A stretch of 28,009 nucleotides of DNA from a virus: IMG/VR virus record IMGVR_UViG_3300046472_000146, positions 1 to 28,009 of that record. One strand, given 5' to 3'. Position numbers and translations under genes: made by a program. Shown here in pieces: positions 1,992-11,257 of this stretch (position 1 is its first letter; each line of letters begins with the position of its first letter). The notes below the pieces were generated by a model that was not told the DNA's origin, searched no databases, and saw nothing but the letters and a program-made list of their open reading frames with translations.

Positions 1992-2900
1992 TTAGCCTGC
2001 CTTCTTTTGCTGCGATTGAGATTGACGAGTCCCGGCATCAATTCGCGGCATGACGAAAGGCAGATTGCGTTCAGTGTTTTTCAGGGAGAGCGAGACGCGA
2101 TGCTTTCGCCTGAAGGCATCGATTGCTTTGATGGCAAACTGATAAAGCAGGAGCCGGCCAGGTGAGCCGAGGAACATTTGCTTTTCTTTGACGATCAGCA
2201 CCTGGAAATTGCGCAAGTCTGTATTGAATGTCTCTGCAAGGGTTGTCTGTGCTGCACGCCGGATCTCAAGTCCTGGCTCTTTGCGATTCAGATGTGGTCC
2301 GAAGATACGCAGGAACTCGCTGTGTCCGTTGTAATAGGCGGCAACCGCCGCAGCCAAGACTGGAACCTGCATTTGCTTACCACAGGTCGCCAGAACGAAA
2401 TCGATACCTTCCTTGTAATACGAGTAATAATCGATAATCAGGTGATTCCGTTCTGCCTTTGACGTTTTCCGGCTCGGTTCAACTACCAGAAAGATCATTC
2501 GCGCCACTTCAAGCGCCTTTGGCGGCGCTTCGACTCGTTCGATCTGCTGAATATCTCTGACCGTTCGCGCCTCGCCTTGATCGGTGAAACTCCGCGATTT
2601 TGGATGTAGTCCGTAGACGATGCCGATCTCGCACGGTTCGCCCGCTTTAAGAATGGCCATCAAACGATTCTGGCCGTTGACCAGACTTCCATCGGTATCG
2701 AAACCAATGAAATCAGGCACGAGCGGAAACTGATTGTTTAGGATATTGCGCGCCATCGCGTTGATGCTGTGTGTCTTCTCTTTGCGATTACCCTCGTTGC
2801 AATAGCTGAGAATAAATTTCGCTTCTTTGGGTGAGACCTTCCGAACTTCAGCCTCAGGTTTCGGCCTTGCATAGCGTTGCTTGTAATCGGGTTCGGTCAT
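1992..2900 (-). CDS. ParB/Srx-fold phage protein
   Basis: The motif DGSLVNGQNRLMAILKAG (about residues 70-87) matches the ParB/sulfiredoxin-superfamily signature, in which a DG..R or GxxR loop binds nucleotide. The rest of the 302-residue protein is mixed helical with no HTH I can place with confidence. The open frame begins at 2933, but the ATG at 2900 has an excellent site (GAGGAGG, about 6 bases upstream) and overlaps the methyltransferase stop as ATGA, so 2900 is the start. Phage members of this group are often annotated as ParB-like nucleases. No ParA is present in the window, so plasmid-type partition by this protein alone is not supported. It sits between DNA modification and replication genes. 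Confidence 0.7.
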   Translation of the reverse strand: MTEPDYKQRYARPKPEAEVRKVSPKEAKFILSYCNEGNRKEKTHSINAMARNILNNQFPLVPDFIGFDTDGSLVNGQNRLMAILKAGEPCEIGIVYGLHPKSRSFTDQGEARTVRDIQQIERVEAPPKALEVARMIFLVVEPSRKTSKAERNHLIIDYYSYYKEGIDFVLATCGKQMQVPVLAAAVAAYYNGHSEFLRIFGPHLNRKEPGLEIRRAAQTTLAETFNTDLRNFQVLIVKEKQMFLGSPGRLLLYQFAIKAIDAFRRKHRVSLSLKNTERNLPFVMPRIDAGTRQSQSQQKKAG

Positions 2901-3910
2901 TGAGCCTCCTCGGTTGGTTTTATGTTGCCCCATACATACCAGTGAGGGCGTGATTTCCTGGCAAACAACTCAAGCCAGGGCGCAGGTGAGCAATCCTCAA
3001 TCAACTCATAGGCTTCGCCCGGCTTGGTACTGTGATCGCCGGGACGAGGAGCCATAAGCAAATTCGTGCGATTCTGTGTTTTCGTGGCAAGCGATCCTTT
3101 GACAGCAAAGATCATATGCTCGGTGGTTATCTGGAAATAGGCCCCCGCTTTGGGATCTGGCTTTGCCCACGTAATCAGAGTCAGATAGCGGAAGCCCCAT
3201 TTCTTGATAAGGTCCAGACCGGAGGGCAGGAATGGATTTGTTACCCAGAGATAGAGATGCGCATCCGGCATTGAGAACTTGTCGATCGGTATGGCTTCGA
3301 TTTCGCCAAGCGACATCTGAGCGTAAGCAGGCTTGATACCCACGCTTCGTTCCGAGTAACCAATATCGCGATAATCCCAGGGCGGGTCGATAACAATTGT
3401 CGGCACCGTCATGCCTTCAGGAAGTAAACCACCATGAAGTGTCGCCACGAGACGCCGATCATCAGCTTGCCGCTTCGCGCGTCCCTGTTCTCGGGCAACG
3501 CGCAATGCCAACGCCAGAGTCAATTCACGAACCTCATGGTTCCTTTCGTAGATATCAAGCCAGACTTGCCCCTTCAGCGTCGCCAGATCGATACATTTAT
3601 TGCCAGTGGTGTGCGGAATACCAATCTCTTGCCAAGTCGGAGAAACCTTCCCGTCCGGGGAAGGTTTGGACGGACGCCCATTCAAATGACGCCCACCTCC
3701 ACTGAGCATTCCTCCGACCTTATGCAGTGCGCAGAGGCGAAGCCAACCCGCCTTATTGAGGAGCTCAAGCGTGGCACCGGCCTTCCTCAATTGCTCCTGA
3801 ATGAATAGCGCTTTGTCGGCAATATTGAATGCCTCACTTGTAGTGCTGGCTTTCTCTAAAGCCTGGCGTGCTCGGTTGAGATGGGTGAGAGCTTCAGATT
3901 GATTCGTCAT
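2897..3910 (-). CDS. MT-A70 family adenine-N6 methyltransferase
   Basis: The C-terminal half is a clear MT-A70 domain. It has IVIDPPWDY with the catalytic DPPW at 175-178, LYLWVTNPFLPSGLDLIKKWGF (about 219-240), TEHMIFAVKG at 263-272, HSTKPGEAYELIE at 293-305, and ELFARKSRPHWYVWGN near the end. The N-terminal 165 residues are helical and basic and probably bind DNA or a partner. The family transfers methyl from AdoMet to adenine N6. The gene overlaps the HNH nuclease stop by 17 bases, so the two are co-expressed, and it is coupled to the ParB-like gene by ATGA. Protection of phage DNA from host restriction is the likely role. A paired modification/nuclease function with HNH is speculative. 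Confidence 0.88.
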   Translation of the reverse strand: MTNQSEALTHLNRARQALEKASTTSEAFNIADKALFIQEQLRKAGATLELLNKAGWLRLCALHKVGGMLSGGGRHLNGRPSKPSPDGKVSPTWQEIGIPHTTGNKCIDLATLKGQVWLDIYERNHEVRELTLALALRVAREQGRAKRQADDRRLVATLHGGLLPEGMTVPTIVIDPPWDYRDIGYSERSVGIKPAYAQMSLGEIEAIPIDKFSMPDAHLYLWVTNPFLPSGLDLIKKWGFRYLTLITWAKPDPKAGAYFQITTEHMIFAVKGSLATKTQNRTNLLMAPRPGDHSTKPGEAYELIEDCSPAPWLELFARKSRPHWYVWGNIKPTEEAQ

Positions 3911-4806: not shown

Positions 4807-5024
4807 TAGTCCGCCGCCTCCTGAGGCTTGATGTACTGCCGGGTCATCCTGCGTGACATTTCAATCCGTGCCGTCTCAACCTCGTCCTGTGCGTTGACGA
4901 GGTGTTTATAGATCGTTTCAGGTGAGAGCACCGTGCGGCCTCCGAGCTCGCGCCGTAACGCGAACTGGACGCGGGTCAGCTCTTCCATTGCAGATTGCAC
5001 GCGGTCAAGAATCATCTTCGACAT
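4806..5024 (-). CDS. Small helical early protein (72 aa)
   Basis: A 72-residue, strongly helical, charged protein (RVQSAMEELTRVQFALRRE, then HLVNAQDEVETARIEMSRR) directly behind the RecT-like gene. Its ATG overlaps that gene's stop (TGATG), and its own TAA overlaps the next ATG. No family is recognised. The position suggests co-function with the annealing protein, but the sequence shows only that it is translated with it. Confidence 0.6.
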   Translation of the reverse strand: MSKMILDRVQSAMEELTRVQFALRRELGGRTVLSPETIYKHLVNAQDEVETARIEMSRRMTRQYIKPQEAAD

Positions 5025-5797
5025 CAGAAGCTCACCTCCTTCTCTTCGCCCGCCGCCTTGGCGTTCTCATAGGCTGCTTCTTCGAGCTGATCGAGCCACA
5101 TGGCGTAGACGCCAATCATCTCTTCCGCCTGCTTGGAGGTGAGGTCCGCCGATTTCTCTTTGCCGGTGACATCCTTCATCTTTGCCTGGAGCACGTCGTT
5201 GGTCAGCCCGAACTTGATCTTCAGACCGCCAATGAAGTCGTTCATCTTTTTTCTCTGATCCAGGCTGATCAGATCGCCTGCGGGCACGGCCTCGACCTGC
5301 GGTGTCCCCATCGATGGGATCGTCTCGATTTCCGTCTCATCGAGAAATCCCAGGCCGCAGATCGAGAGCGTTACCCGCCGTTTGGCCTTCGTAATCGCCT
5401 TGAGTTTCGCGTTGACCAGCACGTCACCAGTCAACCCTTTGATCGAGACGGCGCCGAAGTCCACATCCTCACGGTCCTTCGTCTTGGCATAGGCCATCAC
5501 TTCGAAGACGCCATCGACGGTCGCGGTCTCAATCTTCGTGATAGAGACACCGTGGAGCCGCCGCAGTTGCTCGGTGCAGTCCTTCCTGGCGTACAGGACC
5601 ATCTTGCCGTTGAGGACCAAATATTCGAGAGGTCTCGTAAGCGGGTTAAGGTTGAGACTCTTGCATATCGCCAGGTAATAGCTATTCCGCTCTTCCGGCT
5701 TCAATTGCTTGAGGTCGCCGGCGGCGATGACTCGTTCAATAATTGCATTTGCGTCGTCCATTGGTGTCGGACCGTTGACCTTTGCTAAAGCTTCCAT
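5024..5797 (-). CDS. RecT/Red-beta-like single-strand annealing protein
   Basis: The pattern is typical of phage annealing proteins related to RecT/Bet: YYLAICKSLNLNPLTRPLEY (about 40-59), NGKMVLYARKDCTEQLRR (about 64-81), and a basic helix KAITKAKRRVTLSICGLGFLDE (about 133-154). The C-terminal third is charged, as expected for the tail that contacts partner proteins. The frame extends to a GTG at 5839, but the ATG at 5797 has GAGGATC upstream and begins with a normal N-terminus, so I use it (257 residues). The family pairs complementary single strands during phage recombination. No exonuclease is recognisable nearby. The exact subfamily is uncertain, and a related SSAP group is possible. Confidence 0.65.
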   Translation of the reverse strand: MEALAKVNGPTPMDDANAIIERVIAAGDLKQLKPEERNSYYLAICKSLNLNPLTRPLEYLVLNGKMVLYARKDCTEQLRRLHGVSITKIETATVDGVFEVMAYAKTKDREDVDFGAVSIKGLTGDVLVNAKLKAITKAKRRVTLSICGLGFLDETEIETIPSMGTPQVEAVPAGDLISLDQRKKMNDFIGGLKIKFGLTNDVLQAKMKDVTGKEKSADLTSKQAEEMIGVYAMWLDQLEEAAYENAKAAGEEKEVSF

Positions 5798-6135: not shown

Positions 6136-6275
6136 GCGTCAACGTCCTCCGGTAAGTAGTAGATTAGCCAGCCTGCGCGGTGATATTGAATCAGCCGATC
6201 GTGGCGCTGGCGCCGTACCGTGCGTTCGGATACGCCTACCTCCTTCGCAAATTCCTTTTCCGTCATCCTCGGCAT
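6072..6275 (-). CDS. Excisionase-like MerR-type HTH protein (67 aa)
   Basis: A winged-helix pattern of the excisionase/MerR type is visible: MTEKEFAKEVGVSERTVRRQ forms the helix-turn-helix, then GWLIYYLPEDVDAW resembles the wing and last helix of Xis-like proteins. It is the first gene of the leftward early operon and lies opposite the integrase, as excisionases and early regulators commonly do. The frame opens at 6284, but that ATG overlaps the predicted -10 box (6283-6288). The ATG at 6275 falls 7 bases after that box, so the mRNA is probably leaderless, and I use 6275. It may direct excision at attP, regulate the operon, or both. Confidence 0.7.
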   Translation of the reverse strand: MPRMTEKEFAKEVGVSERTVRRQRHDRLIQYHRAGWLIYYLPEDVDAWHETMKHEPICRKSDLRKVS

Positions 6276-6282
6276 ATGAGAC

Positions 6283-6312
6283 ATAATAAAGTTAACTTTA
6301 TGGATATGTCAA
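6283..6312 (-). promoter_or_regulatory. Leftward early promoter with operator in the spacer
   Basis: On the minus strand TTGACA (6312-6307) and TATTAT (6288-6283) are separated by 18 bases and match sigma-70 boxes well. A second TTGACA lies immediately upstream (6318-6313). The expected start of transcription falls at or within two bases of the HTH gene's ATG at 6275. The AGTTAAC palindrome fills the spacer, so a bound repressor would block polymerase. Confidence 0.7.
6286..6301. promoter_or_regulatory. Operator site 1: 16-bp perfect palindrome
   Basis: ATAAAGTTAACTTTAT is a perfect 16-bp dyad lying in the spacer of the leftward early promoter and touching its -10 box. It shares AGTTAAC with three further sites at 6320-6330, 6577-6587 and 6615-6625. 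The likely ligand is one of the two ribbon-helix-helix proteins encoded next to it, by inference from position. Confidence 0.65.
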
Positions 6313-6319
6313 TGTCAAA

Positions 6320-6330
6320 AGTTAACCTTA
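6320..6330 (+). promoter_or_regulatory. Operator site 2 (AGTTAACCTTA)
   Basis: This site is identical over 11 bases to site 4 at 6615-6625. Its centre is 30 bp from that of site 1, close to three helical turns, so proteins on both could lie on the same DNA face. It is just upstream of the early promoter's -35 boxes. Confidence 0.6.
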
Positions 6331-6343
6331 CGATCAAAAAAAT

Positions 6344-6553
6344 TTAGGCTGCGGCGGCCTGGCGCTTGCCTAATGTTTCGCTTTTCCTACGCAACCGCCG
6401 CCGGCAATAATCCTCAATGGCCGCCCGAACAATGGCGCCATCTTTAGTGTCGTCTTCGCGTGCAAATTCATGCACCAGGCGCTTGATCTCCGGATGTACT
6501 TTGCCCGCAACCAGTTGCAGCTTGTCCTCTATTGGCTTCAATCTTCTTGGCAT
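6344..6553 (-). CDS. Ribbon-helix-helix regulator A (69 aa)
   Basis: The central part (LQLVAGKVHPEIKRLVHEFA, then DGAIVRAAIEDYCRRRL) has the strand-helix-helix layout of Arc/CopG-type DNA-binding proteins. The N-terminus is basic and the C-terminus is a basic tail ending in alanines. The ATG at 6553 lies only a few bases after a predicted leftward promoter (TAATAA at 6572-6567, TTGTCA at 6593-6588), so the transcript has almost no leader. It is transcribed towards the early operon and away from the second RHH gene. It is a strong candidate to bind the AGTTAACCYTA sites flanking its own gene. Confidence 0.7.
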   Translation of the reverse strand: MPRRLKPIEDKLQLVAGKVHPEIKRLVHEFAREDDTKDGAIVRAAIEDYCRRRLRRKSETLGKRQAAAA

Positions 6554-6560
6554 ATTGTCG

Positions 6561-6625
6561 GATAATTTATTACAGGTAGGGTTAACTTGACAAGAGAAAA
6601 GATAATTTGTTACTAGTTAACCTTA
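6561..6625. promoter_or_regulatory. Divergent promoter region with operator sites 3 and 4
   Basis: Leftward: TTGTCA (6593-6588) and TAATAA (6572-6567), spacer 15, serve regulator A. Rightward: TTGACA (6587-6592) and the extended TGTTACTAG (TACTAG at 6611-6616), spacer 18, could serve regulator B and integrase. The two -35 boxes overlap. Site 3 (minus-strand AGTTAACCCTA, 6577-6587) and site 4 (AGTTAACCTTA, 6615-6625) cover both promoters. GATAATTTRTTAC is also directly repeated at 6561-6573 and 6601-6613, 40 bp apart. The -10 boxes are imperfect, so the exact starts are tentative. Confidence 0.6.
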
Positions 6626-6648
6626 TCTTGCGTTACCCTTGCCCCCTC

Positions 6649-6900
6649 ATGGCTAGACGCAAGAAGAAGGAGAACGACTTGCTCGAAACCGTAGGCATCA
6701 AACTCCCTCCCTCGGTGATTGCGGAACTGGATGCAATCGCGGACAACACGATCACTTCCAGGTCATGGGCTGGACGAAGACTGTTGCTGATCGGTCTGGA
6801 AATCTATCATCGCAATCGCTCACTGATCCTTGATAGTCAGACTTACAGCCCACCAATAAAGCCAGCCGAAGAGCCAGGCAAACGGAGGAAACCGGCTTGA
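6649..6900 (+). CDS. Ribbon-helix-helix regulator B (83 aa)
   Basis: After a basic N-terminus (MARRKKKENDLL) there is a CopG-like core: VGIKLPPSVIAELDAIADN, then SRSWAGRRLLLIGLEIYHRN. The C-terminal 25 residues are proline- and lysine-rich. The frame extends upstream to a TTG at 6607, but that part lies in the operator region and lacks family features, so the ATG at 6649 is used. No good ribosome site is visible. It lies 9 bases before the integrase and is probably co-transcribed with it, which suggests control of integration or of the divergent early operon. Confidence 0.7.
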   Translation: MARRKKKENDLLETVGIKLPPSVIAELDAIADNTITSRSWAGRRLLLIGLEIYHRNRSLILDSQTYSPPIKPAEEPGKRRKPA

Positions 6901-8204: not shown

Positions 8205-8249
8205 TGATTCGTAATCAGTAGGTCAACAGTTCGAATCTGTTCACCGGCT
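8205..8249 (+). other. attP: attP: 3' half of a tRNA-Thr(CGT) gene
   Basis: The 45 bases reproduce a tRNA from the anticodon arm to the discriminator base. They contain loop TTCGTAA with anticodon CGT, stem TCAGT, a T-arm AACAG-TTCGAAT-CTGTT, and the acceptor strand CACCGGC. The 5' half (acceptor GCCGGTG and D-arm) is absent, and the 5' anticodon strand loses pairing upstream of 8205. It is therefore not a working tRNA but the segment that restores the host gene after integration. It lies 150 bases after the integrase. Confidence 0.88.
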
Positions 8250-8275: not shown

Positions 8276-8296
8276 TTATCCGCAATTTTATCCGCA
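8276..8296 (+). repeat. Right pair of TTATCCGCA arm-type sites
   Basis: TTATCCGCA recurs at 8276-8284 and 8288-8296, 12 bp apart, about 27 bases beyond the attP core and in the same orientation as the left pair. The last copy covers the stop codon of the leftward C5 methyltransferase gene. Confidence 0.75.
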
Positions 8297-9268
8297 AATT
8301 TTGATTTCTTGTGCGATGGCTGCGATGAAGACATAGGCAACCTGCGGGACGATGGCGTTCCCGAGCCCTCGCAGACGGTCCACTCTTTTGGGAATCCCTG
8401 AAGCCACTCTACCCACGTCGGGTTCAGTGAGCCAGATGCTTTCGAGGGGCTCACTGCCCTGCCAAGCAGTCCATTCACCGGGACGTTCAGCAGGTCGCCC
8501 GTGTCCTTGTGATCCCGTCCCGTTGGCGTCGGCCACATGCCCATTGTCTTGTAAACAGCCGTTGCCAGTCCGTCGCCGGCTTTCTTCGAAACGCCCTTGT
8601 AATTCCCATTGCCGTTGATCGTCGGCGTGGGCCAGTTCGCAACTGCCGTTTGCAGATTCAATCCGCCCTCCCGGCCCTGCGTACCCGCTCCCGTTGAGCA
8701 ATTGCTCGTCGGCGTGGGAAAGAATGCCCGATAGAATTCCGTGCGGTTCATCCCCGAAGACCTCTCGCCGCTGCAAGGTCTCGGAGTCGGTAAGGACAAT
8801 CCAGAGTCGGTCTCGTCTATGCAGCGCGCCAACGGCGGAAGCGGGAACGCAGTTCCACGAAGCATCAAACCCGAGCGCGGCCAGCTCACCGAGTATGCGT
8901 CCGAAGATTCGACCTCCATCCAGGGAAAGGATGCCTGGGACATTTTCCAGCAGCGCAAACCTGGGTCGTACCTCCCCAAGCAGTCGGGCAAGCTCGGGCC
9001 ATAGGAACCGCTCGTCGCTACTTCCACGCCGTTGCCCCGCACACGAGAAAGGCTGGCAAGGAAAGCCCGCTGTAACGAGATCAACGTCCTGAAACTGGTT
9101 GCCATCAATCGCTCGAACATCGCCGTAATTTACAACGCCTGGCCAGTGTAGATCCAGGATCTTCGAGCAGTAGGCGTCAGTCTCGGCGAATCCGATGGTT
9201 TCGAATCCCGCCCATCCAGCGGCAAGCGCAAATCCGCCAATGCCGCTGAACAGGTCCAGATGTCTCAT
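8288..9268 (-). CDS. DNA C5-cytosine methyltransferase
   Basis: All core motifs are present: motif I DLFSGIGG (5-12), motif IV GFPCQPFS with catalytic C71, motif VI ENV (108-110), motif VIII RRDRLWIV (151-158), and a C-terminal motif RLRGLGNAIVP (298-308). The variable region (about 165-290) is the target-recognition domain. It would methylate cytosine C5 within a DNA site I cannot predict. It is the last gene of a four-gene leftward group coupled by overlaps and starts with ATGA on the preceding gene. No restriction endonuclease is adjacent, so it is an orphan enzyme, probably for protection against host restriction. Confidence 0.95.
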   Translation of the reverse strand: MRHLDLFSGIGGFALAAGWAGFETIGFAETDAYCSKILDLHWPGVVNYGDVRAIDGNQFQDVDLVTAGFPCQPFSCAGQRRGSSDERFLWPELARLLGEVRPRFALLENVPGILSLDGGRIFGRILGELAALGFDASWNCVPASAVGALHRRDRLWIVLTDSETLQRREVFGDEPHGILSGILSHADEQLLNGSGYAGPGGRIESANGSCELAHADDQRQWELQGRFEESRRRTGNGCLQDNGHVADANGTGSQGHGRPAERPGEWTAWQGSEPLESIWLTEPDVGRVASGIPKRVDRLRGLGNAIVPQVAYVFIAAIAQEIKICG

Positions 9269-9504
9269 GCTGATAGCCTCTGTGTGAATTCCATATCCTG
9301 CCGCTCAATCTCTCGAGCAAATCGAAACGCTGCCTGAGCCTGCCAGTAGGCATCATTAGGCTTCCTCGCCTGGACTGAGGCAATGGCAAGCGCTGCCATC
9401 GCGTGCAGCTGGATGTAGAAAGCCTCGACTGACCAGCGCCGATGGAAGGAATGGACACGCCTGGCTGAATCTGAGAGGTGGTCAAAGATCAAGTCATCGG
9501 TCAT
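9265..9504 (-). CDS. Unknown small helical protein (79 aa)
   Basis: The open frame starts at 9609, but the ATG at 9504 has AGGAGG 10 bases upstream and gives a sensible N-terminus (MTDDLIFDHLSDSARRVHSF), so I use it. The protein is helical and rich in alanine and arginine, with no motif I recognise. It overlaps the preceding zinc protein by 11 bases and the methyltransferase by ATGA, so it is translated with both. Function unknown. Confidence 0.7.
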   Translation of the reverse strand: MTDDLIFDHLSDSARRVHSFHRRWSVEAFYIQLHAMAALAIASVQARKPNDAYWQAQAAFRFAREIERQDMEFTQRLSA

Positions 9505-9643
9505 CGCCGTCTTCCTCCTGTTCAGGATAAACGTCAGGATATTCTTCATGCCAGTCCTCCCACTGGCAATCTGAGCACACTTCCTGATCAAAGCAATCGC
9601 GCTCGTCAAGGGCGCCGCCGCAGCGTTTGCACATCCTGTCCAT
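9494..9643 (-). CDS. Tiny zinc-ribbon protein (49 aa)
   Basis: From the ATG at 9643 the protein reads MDRMCKRCGGALDERDCF, with CKRC at 5-8 and CSDC at 23-26, a compact zinc-ribbon pattern. An acidic C-terminus (EYPDVYPEQEEDGDD) follows, which may mimic DNA or bind a basic partner. GAGG lies upstream and the ATG overlaps the stop of the preceding gene (TAATG). The longer frame from 9682 adds a basic stretch inside that neighbour and is less likely. Function unknown. Confidence 0.7.
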   Translation of the reverse strand: MDRMCKRCGGALDERDCFDQEVCSDCQWEDWHEEYPDVYPEQEEDGDDR

Positions 9644-9918
9644 TAGTCCAGCCTCACGCCGCTCGGCACGCAGCGGCGGCAATGGCTTTGCATCTCGTAG
9701 CCCAACTCATCCGAATAGTTTGCCACGTCGATCGCCTCGACTGTCCACTCGCCGCAGTAATCACAATGCCAGGCACCGGCGGCCTCGGCTATCGCATCGA
9801 GAGCGGCAGACATACGGGCAACGAGGTCATCAATATTCGCCTGCATCTCGGCGAGCGGATCGGAGACGGGCTTGAGTTCGGGCTTGACGGTAGCGGGTGC
9901 TAAGGAATAAGTTTGCAT
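9643..9918 (-). CDS. Zinc-binding early protein, first gene of the leftward group (91 aa)
   Basis: A proline-rich N-terminus is followed by a helix with coiled-coil character (about 21-48) and then two cysteine pairs, CDYC at 52-55 and CRRC at 80-83, with H51 and H79 next to them. Together these suggest a zinc ribbon with a dimerising helix. AAAGGA precedes the ATG at a normal distance. It is the first gene after a strong leftward promoter (10015-10042) under the predicted control of the facing XRE repressor. That position is typical of early regulators or antirepressors, but no such family is recognised. Confidence 0.7.
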   Translation of the reverse strand: MQTYSLAPATVKPELKPVSDPLAEMQANIDDLVARMSAALDAIAEAAGAWHCDYCGEWTVEAIDVANYSDELGYEMQSHCRRCVPSGVRLD

Positions 9919-10014
9919 GGTTCGATCCTTTCAAAAGGGTGTTGAACGTTGGCCTGGTCGCGTTGTTTCTTTGCGGGAGTAGCGCTTCCAGGCCTTTGCT
10001 TTTTCGACACCGCC

Positions 10015-10042
10015 ATTCTACCATTGGCGCATTCTGTGTCAA
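10015..10042 (-). promoter_or_regulatory. Leftward early promoter with operator over the -10 box
   Basis: On the minus strand TTGACA (10042-10037) and TAGAAT (10020-10015) are 16 bases apart. It would transcribe the zinc-protein and C5 methyltransferase group, leaving a leader of about 90 bases. A TCTACCATTGG site (10017-10027) covers its -10 region, so repression is expected. Confidence 0.75.
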
Positions 10043-10095
10043 GTGCCCAGTGAAAATAATCTCTACCGATGGGTTGACGCGACATCTACCGTTGG
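10017..10095 (+). repeat. Three TCTACCRWTGG operator-like repeats
   Basis: TCTACCATTGG (10017-10027), TCTACCGATGG (10062-10072) and TCTACCGTTGG (10085-10095) are direct repeats differing only at two central positions. The first overlaps the leftward -10 box and the last lies in the spacer of the rightward promoter. The facing XRE repressor gene is the natural candidate for the binding protein. The layout resembles a lambda-type immunity operator by position only. Confidence 0.75.
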
Positions 10096-10102
10096 CTATA
10101 GT
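10074..10102 (+). promoter_or_regulatory. Rightward repressor promoter giving a leaderless mRNA
   Basis: TTGACG (10074-10079) and TATAGT (10097-10102) are separated by 17 bases. Only six bases (gcatct) lie between the -10 box and the repressor ATG at 10109, so transcription is expected to begin at the ATG itself. One operator copy sits in the spacer and one just upstream. Confidence 0.75.
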
Positions 10103-10108
10103 GCATCT

Positions 10109-10306
10109 ATGACTGGTGATGAACTCAAGCAATGGCGCGAAGGGCGGCATCTCACGCAAGCAGAACTGTCCGAGTTGCTCGGCGTGAAGTTCAACACGGT
10201 ATCCAGGTGGGAAGTGGGCACGCGTGCGGTGCCTTCCTTCCTGGAACTGGCGCTCAAGGGCATCGCTCAGCAGCTCAACGGCAAGAAAGGCAAATCAAAG
10301 AAATGA
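10109..10306 (+). CDS. XRE-family HTH repressor (65 aa)
   Basis: The protein is a minimal lambda-repressor-like HTH: MTGDELKQWREGRHLTQAEL, then SELLGVKFNTVSRWEVGTRA, a classic turn and recognition helix. A short helix and a lysine-rich tail follow. It has no dimerisation or cleavage domain, so it may need a partner or respond to something other than RecA. A longer frame from 10043 lies in the promoter region and is rejected because the ATG at 10109 falls at the predicted transcript start. Three operator-like repeats lie just upstream. It is followed by a coiled-coil gene coupled by ATGA. Confidence 0.82.
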   Translation: MTGDELKQWREGRHLTQAELSELLGVKFNTVSRWEVGTRAVPSFLELALKGIAQQLNGKKGKSKK

Positions 10307-10488
10307 TTACCATAGAACAGGTCTACGAGAAGCTGGTGCAACTCACGGAGCTATGCGATCGGGAATTCAAGCAACTAAACGCACAGGTTGCACGCACCGA
10401 ACGCCGCCAGCGTCAGCAGGATTCCAAGCTCGATAGCTTCATCGAAGAAATCATTGAGATGAAGCGCGACCTCAAACACCCCGTTTAA
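10303..10488 (+). CDS. Coiled-coil partner of the repressor (61 aa)
   Basis: The ATG at 10303 overlaps the repressor stop (ATGA). The protein is one long charged helix (VYEKLVQLTELCDREFKQLN, then ARTERRQRQQDSKLDSFIEE) with heptad-like spacing, so it is likely to form a coiled coil. A much longer frame in the same phase from 10132 only reads through the repressor gene. Because it is translationally coupled to a one-domain repressor, it could be its oligomerisation or modulator subunit; this is inference. Confidence 0.7.
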   Translation: MITIEQVYEKLVQLTELCDREFKQLNAQVARTERRQRQQDSKLDSFIEEIIEMKRDLKHPV

Positions 10489-10516
10489 CCCCACTTTGAA
10501 AGGAACCCGAAAGTAA

Positions 10517-11257
10517 GTGTCCCAACAATTGCAACCACCCTCACAACCCTATCTCATCCAGGCTCAAGCCGCTTATAGCTGCCCCAAGTGCAGCCAGCCG
10601 ATCAAGAGCATTTTTCGATCAAGCGGAGGCACCTCCGAATGGCTGCTGCTCGTAATTGCGATCATCCTGACGCCGGTCCTGATCGGCATCTTCTTCTGGA
10701 TTGCCTACTTCTCGAGGAAACGAAACGAACGGGATAATCAATTATGGCATTGCGAGAGCTGTGGATGGCAGGCTGCGATACTAACGCCGGAGGCCCGGAA
10801 ACGACGCGCACTCAACGCCAAGCTAGCCCTTGCCGGGATCTGCATAGCAATCCTGTACGCGCTATGGGGGGCAAGCGGGAACCCTGAAAGCAAATCGGCT
10901 GCTAGTCCAACGCCAACTCCAGTAGCTTTTCTAAATGGCGTCAAGAAACATGATGCTGAGATACTCGCCCGAAACAGTTTGGCGGATATCCAGGCGGACT
11001 ACCAGAAATTGCTGAATGATCTTTTTCCACATATGAATTGGATCAAAGTGAAGTATGCGGGCTCGGGAAAGAGCCTACATCTCTATGGCTACCACAACTA
11101 CTTCAGTCATCTCACATTGACTCTTGGTAGCGAAGGGCCGGCAATCAGCAGATGGGTCAGCCAGAATGAGACGCGCCTGAAAGCGGCCGGAATCAAACAA
11201 GTGGGAATTTACGGCCTGGGATATGCACCCTCAGGCAGCTACTTCACAGTCGATTAG
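10517..11257 (+). CDS. Zinc-ribbon membrane protein, candidate lysogenic-conversion gene
   Basis: The start is GTG with AAAGGA upstream. CPKC (22-25) and CESC (79-82) look like the two halves of a zinc ribbon, but a hydrophobic segment (about 41-65, with a central proline) lies between them. A second hydrophobic segment follows at about 102-118, then a threonine/proline-rich linker. A C-terminal domain of about 105 residues then runs to the end with aromatic and glycine motifs (YGYHNYFSHLTLTL, YGLGYAPSGSYF). It lies behind the repressor and coiled-coil genes and may be expressed in the lysogen. No family is recognised. Superinfection exclusion or another host-modifying role is speculation from position and topology. 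Confidence 0.75.
   Translation: MSQQLQPPSQPYLIQAQAAYSCPKCSQPIKSIFRSSGGTSEWLLLVIAIILTPVLIGIFFWIAYFSRKRNERDNQLWHCESCGWQAAILTPEARKRRALNAKLALAGICIAILYALWGASGNPESKSAASPTPTPVAFLNGVKKHDAEILARNSLADIQADYQKLLNDLFPHMNWIKVKYAGSGKSLHLYGYHNYFSHLTLTLGSEGPAISRWVSQNETRLKAAGIKQVGIYGLGYAPSGSYFTVD

Follow-up and report, generated by a model that had tools for sequence, protein, structure and literature searches.

The 28,009-nt window, the whole stretch of viral DNA analysed (IMG/VR record IMGVR_UViG_3300046472_000146), probably contains a second, self-contained repressor circuit that regulates itself and serves an accessory DNA-modification operon next to attP. A tiny XRE-type repressor would very likely turn down its own gene and the neighbouring DNA-modification genes. 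Gene order, promoters, sites, start codon, conservation, regulator swapping and a hairpin were read directly from the sequences of the window and its relatives (Table 1). The closest of these, IMGVR_UViG_3300045241_000012 (L004/L013, hereafter L013), encodes an XRE protein with 88% identity.

Table 1. Features of the two control regions and of the adjoining operons; positions are those of the window.
Feature	Position	Strand	Remarks
Leftward RHH-type protein, first control region	6344-6553	-	Weak family scores
Rightward RHH protein	6649-6900	+	Directly upstream of integrase; Pfam RHH_1 at cut-off; PHROG Arc-like/CopG
attP core, 3' half of tRNA-Thr(CGT) gene	~8205-8247	+	Common to the five-phage group
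C5 cytosine DNA methyltransferase, distal gene of leftward operon	8288-9268	-	Pfam DNA_methylase 4e-42; phrog_363 2e-73
Third small ORF, leftward operon	9265-9504	-	ATG with SD AGGAGG; homologues in L013, L017
Second small Cys-rich protein, leftward operon	9494-9682	-	Homologue in L013
Small CxxC zinc-type protein, first gene of leftward operon	9643-9918	-	Conserved in 5/5 phages
Terminator-like hairpin and U-rich tract	9951-10007 (hairpin 9951-9994)	+	In leader of leftward gene
Leftward promoter TTGACA-16-TAGAAT	10015-10042	-	-35 10042-10037, -10 10020-10015; 11/12, TG-extended; unchanged in L013
Operator-like site 1, TCTACCATTGG	10017-10027	+	Overlaps leftward -10 box and spacer; identical in L013
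Operator-like site 2, TCTACCGATGG	10062-10072	+	Abuts rightward -35 from upstream; identical in L013
Rightward promoter TTGACG-17-TATAGT	10074-10102	+	-35 10074-10079, -10 10097-10102; 10/12; unchanged in L013
Operator-like site 3, TCTACCGTTGG	10085-10095	+	Wholly inside rightward promoter spacer; identical in L013
XRE (HTH_3) regulator, 65 aa	10109-10306	+	Pfam HTH_3 4.4e-10; PHROG transcriptional regulator 6e-10
Coiled-coil partner, 61 aa	10303-10488	+	C-terminal motif FIEEIIEMKRDLKHPV common to partners of unrelated regulators
Zinc-ribbon protein with membrane segment, next gene of rightward operon	10517-11257	+	LITAF-like, just under Pfam cut-off

Promoters, operator-like sites and the start of the regulator gene

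A preliminary description had reported strong divergent promoter boxes overlaid by three copies of TCTACCRWTGG, and a leaderless repressor gene with its ATG six bases after its own -10 box. The boxes are strong on both sides when scored as sigma-70-like, a consensus that may not be that of the host. No exact match other than the three copies, all on the + strand, occurs in the window, and the reversed pattern used as a control has none; since the pattern was derived from its own three copies, this count is descriptive. The overlay holds for two of the sites. Four bases of the leftward -10 box and part of the spacer fall within site 1, and site 3 lies in the rightward spacer, but one base separates the end of site 2 from the rightward -35 box, which it only abuts. 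The region thus combines divergent promoters, several operator-like sites on core elements and one promoter driving the regulator, the arrangement expected of an immunity repressor.

The sites are direct repeats whose starts lie 45 and 23 bases apart. Although palindromes are the targets of most XRE repressors, no clear dyad symmetry was found in the 11-base site. When the intergenic region was dinucleotide-shuffled 400 times, no comparable 11-mer triple (pairwise at most two differences, within 80 bp) appeared. Across the whole window, two other such clusters occur in the real sequence and six in 20 whole-window shuffles. Because such clusters arise by chance at that scale, the repeats alone are not decisive. 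Decisive for these candidate operators is their position on both promoters together with their exact conservation in L013; chance repeats were rejected.

The regulator belongs to the XRE/HTH_3 family (PF01381, 39.9 bits against a curated cut-off of 23), and its PADLOC matches are limited to the HTH domain. Six bases (10103-10108) separate TATAGT from the ATG at 10109, as described, and from this gap +1 is predicted at the A of the ATG. No Shine-Dalgarno sequence precedes this ATG, the best SD-like run being 3 nt. With +1 placed at the start codon and an SD absent, the XRE mRNA is predicted to be leaderless. An in-frame upstream GTG (10043) reads GAG in L013, and a later start is implausible because the HTH domain begins at residues 3-6. 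The window was scanned on both strands for ATGs with a promoter-like pair (at least 9/12) ending 4-10 nt upstream. The layout was found at 4 of 895 ATGs, namely those of XRE, the leftward RHH protein and two alternative xis starts; within this genome it is confined to regulator genes.

The XRE gene and the gene of its coiled-coil partner overlap at ATGA. Further downstream, the C-terminal half of the zinc-ribbon protein also occurs in two more distant relatives (L017 and L018, see below).

Comparison with related phages

The conservation evidence lies in the contrast between the control region and its flanks. The 94-bp block from the leftward -10 box to the ATG is 95.7% identical in L013, compared with 70% in the adjoining leader, 86% in the XRE coding sequence and 48% in the partner gene. 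The four differences in the block all fall outside the sites and boxes, and no spacing is altered, although so few changes would by themselves lend no significance to their avoidance of the sites. The XRE gene differs at 4, 7 and 17 first, second and third codon positions, mostly the third. Site conservation rests on one genome pair, as only L013 also carries XRE; searches for more distant XRE relatives gave only partial matches, under 60%. Other collection matches with a site pair were rejected as unlike the XRE switch: L006/L007 are repetitive coding sequence, and L008/L009 contain a short tandem duplication in large A+T-rich phages.

Three further relatives, L017 (IMGVR_UViG_3300045110_000141), L018 (3300040339_000003) and L019 (3300047508_000194), were found by searches with the attP core and the tail-end gene. 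All five phages, which have the tRNA-Thr attP in common, carry a slot with a small DNA-binding regulator, a coiled-coil partner and a divergent zinc-protein operon. Two of the five (window, L013) have XRE as the regulator, and L017, L018 and L019 have an unrelated HTH_17 protein. TCTACCRWTGG is absent from these three, so that operator type tracks regulator type among the relatives. On its slot promoters, L019 carries GCTTGCARTGACRCAAGC twice and L018 carries GTTGAN6YCAAC twice, the latter read from the sequence. Despite the unrelated regulator, L019 and the window have coiled coils with 77% identity; the coiled coil of L017 is far more distant and has a membrane segment. The leaderless-looking start extends to all five phages, with distances from the -10 end to the regulator ATG of 6, 6, 8, 8 and 8 nt, although the slot promoters of L017-L019 score only 8-9/12, a threshold at which chance matches also occur.

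In both XRE phages the last gene of the leftward operon is one for DNA modification: the methyltransferase in the window and, at the corresponding place in L013, a Mom-like gene (L013:2925-3365; phrog_1384, 1.6e-32). The operon of L018 also includes a Rad52-type annealing protein, and a near-identical ORF is found in L019. An operon with a Rad52-like protein would fit early lytic functions better than accessory ones. An MT-A70-type methyltransferase is encoded in the replication operon of the window (2897-3910), and the phage therefore carries two kinds of DNA methyltransferase.

The hairpin upstream of the slot has a minimum free energy of -25.7 on the + strand (z -5.3) compared with -17.4 on the - strand. 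A long + strand hairpin followed by a U-rich tract is possible in all five phages, with the tract interrupted in each. Substitutions in the relatives give G-U pairs on the + strand and C-A mismatches on the - strand, which identifies + as the strand on which the hairpin holds. Of the pair cells, 92% hold, compared with at most 55% when the structure is slid, a comparison whose shuffle control is weak with five sequences. No Rfam match was found near the hairpin. The structure faces the regulator gene, where it would block transcription entering from the integrase or tRNA side.

The control region beside the integrase

In the window, L013 and L017, the integrase is adjoined by divergent RHH-type genes, several of which score weakly or not at all against families. 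Divergent XRE genes occupy this place in L018 and L019. The rightward RHH genes of the window and L013 have 27% nucleotide identity, though the XRE region is common to both phages; both control regions therefore apparently swap regulators independently. Several GTTAACYT copies are scattered around the RHH genes (6290-6640), and ACTAG-type repeats are found at the matching place in L013. From these differing repeats, the operators of the first region would also vary between relatives. At 6275-6312, the excisionase-like HTH_17 gene is preceded by a separate TTGACA-18-TATTAT promoter, which stops 7 nt short of an in-frame ATG at 6275. This xis gene, beside GTTAAC repeats, is a second leaderless-looking regulator gene. 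A conserved early protein (5024-5797), 78% identical in L017 and without Pfam or PHROG match, is suggested by its position to have a recombination function.

The two regions had been described as flanking attP in an unusual arrangement. Their flanking position is supported, attP being located in the tRNA-Thr(CGT) gene between them, and the map would thus place them at opposite ends of the prophage. The word unusual was too strong: phage P22 has two immunity regions, and four related phages have a matching two-region layout. As judged from gene position, the RHH pair adjoining integrase and excisionase is a likelier lysogeny switch than the XRE region.

Alternative functions of the XRE region

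XRE could instead be the main immunity repressor, with the RHH pair merely controlling integrase and excisionase. XRE/CI-type proteins are the usual phage repressors, and slot regulators and operators are swapped between relatives as in immunity regions. This assignment is unlikely nevertheless. The leftward operon that XRE would control is short and ends at attP, the replication genes lie downstream of the RHH region, and in L018 and L019 an XRE pair replaces RHH beside the integrase, marking the place of the main switch. The 11-mer is not palindromic and its binding by XRE is predicted from sequence, which would leave room for another factor, a host regulator or the coiled-coil partner, to bind the repeats while XRE acts elsewhere. 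Such a factor is rather improbable, since the motif is confined to the promoters adjoining the XRE gene and is found together with XRE, and L019 has the closely similar coiled coil with an HTH_17 regulator and lacks the motif.

Two further functions have very little probability. The combination of a small XRE protein, a predicted leaderless mRNA and a divergently encoded methyltransferase resembles C.AhdI (PMC5333194), so that XRE might be a restriction-modification-like controller, a C protein timing the methyltransferase. No restriction endonuclease gene was recognised beside XRE, the sites are direct repeats rather than clear dyads, and L013 keeps XRE and its sites with the Mom-like gene in place of the methyltransferase. 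The C-protein assignment was rejected, as the linked endonuclease and palindromic C boxes of such systems were not found. Equally improbable is a toxin-antitoxin pair of an MqsA-like XRE antitoxin and a coiled-coil toxin. The overlapping two-gene operon with an autoregulation layout and a weak MqsA_antitoxin Pfam match under the cut-off would fit, but no toxin family resembles the partner, which in L018 and L019 accompanies unrelated regulators. An MqsRA system was rejected because the window contains neither the toxin partner nor the palindromic ACCT-N3-AGGT operator.

Proposed mechanism

The autoregulated accessory circuit would operate as follows. We infer DNA binding, repression, a leaderless mRNA, timing, terminator activity and a role of the coiled coil from the layout. 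The 65-aa XRE protein would be made from an mRNA beginning at its own AUG and would bind the three 11-base sites. Occupancy of site 1 would cover the leftward -10 box and switch off the accessory operon (small zinc-type proteins, C5 DNA methyltransferase). Sites 2 and 3, flanking and filling the core of the XRE promoter, would limit XRE synthesis, and the putative upstream + strand terminator would shield the regulator from int/tRNA-side read-through. In the prophage, the leftward operon would lie at the end opposite the integrase and the RHH switch, since it adjoins attP. The RHH pair would decide on lysogeny, while in the lysogen the XRE circuit would keep expression of the DNA-modification operon low or off. 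The placement of a modification or recombination gene under a dedicated repressor suggests that it is expressed shortly after infection and silent in the lysogen. On infection or induction the operon may show a burst of expression while the repressor is still scarce. A more speculative and rather doubtful extension is a plug-in slot, in which the leaderless position, the kind of coiled coil and the first target are kept, and the DNA-binding protein (XRE or HTH_17) is exchanged with its operators. In such a slot the coil would serve either regulator as a shared adaptor or anti-repressor.

Similarity to described systems

Phage P22 has a primary immunity region immC plus a secondary region immI with Arc/Mnt (PMC8022706). 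It likewise is temperate, with primary and secondary repressor regions apart in the genome, one of HTH type and one of RHH type, and with a secondary region that varies among relatives. The assignments differ: in P22 the primary repressor is C2, and Arc/Mnt, the secondary one, controls an antirepressor within the late operon, whereas in the window phage RHH lies by the integrase and XRE over the DNA-modification operon beside attP. No antirepressor, as would define a P22-like immI, was found by Pfam and PHROG among the proteins of both control regions. CvkR, the MerR-type repressor of type V-K CRISPR transposons, is leaderless (PMC9938897). It has a short divergent spacer and an adjacent repressed operon, both features predicted for the window, and regulators of different families were apparently acquired independently. 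It differs in its MerR family, its palindromic motif and its location on a transposon rather than a phage. The restriction-modification C protein C.AhdI has a leaderless transcript (PMC5333194) and is, as predicted for XRE, a small autoregulated HTH regulator near a methyltransferase. In contrast, no endonuclease gene was recognised beside XRE, the methyltransferase of the window is not conserved with the regulator, and the sites are direct repeats.

The lambda repressor cI is also translated without a leader but binds palindromes and has a C-terminal domain; the relationship to XRE does not extend beyond the HTH domain. The phage P2 repressor C has a direct-repeat operator. It has a matching HTH fold, a weak match in the PDB search only, and no sequence relationship to XRE beyond the HTH domain. 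N29 and R33 of XRE align with the DNA-contacting N97 and R101 of MqsA, a lead that depends on what we take to be the MqsA sequence and numbering. The MqsA half-site is ACCT and the XRE operator contains ACC, but MqsA binds an ACCT-N3-AGGT palindrome, and XRE comes without an MqsR toxin or a zinc domain. Two immunity regions (P22) and leaderless regulators (lambda cI, C.AhdI, CvkR) are already known, and the XRE slot is a variation on a known theme.

As a compact natural set, the phage group lends itself to the question why leaderless regulator genes are so common in mobile elements: unrelated regulators in one slot all begin 6-8 nt after a -10 box, unlike the ordinary genes of the window. The group also points to a second, separately controlled DNA-modification circuit at the prophage end, with exchangeable specificity.

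Additional observation

A 22-nt block, GTTYAACMCCMYTTTGAAAGGA, occurs in the translation-start regions of the leftward zinc gene (9926-9948, - strand) and of the gene after the coiled coil (10482-10504, + strand). A search of the window with up to 3 mismatches gave these two matches, on opposite strands, compared with 0 expected.
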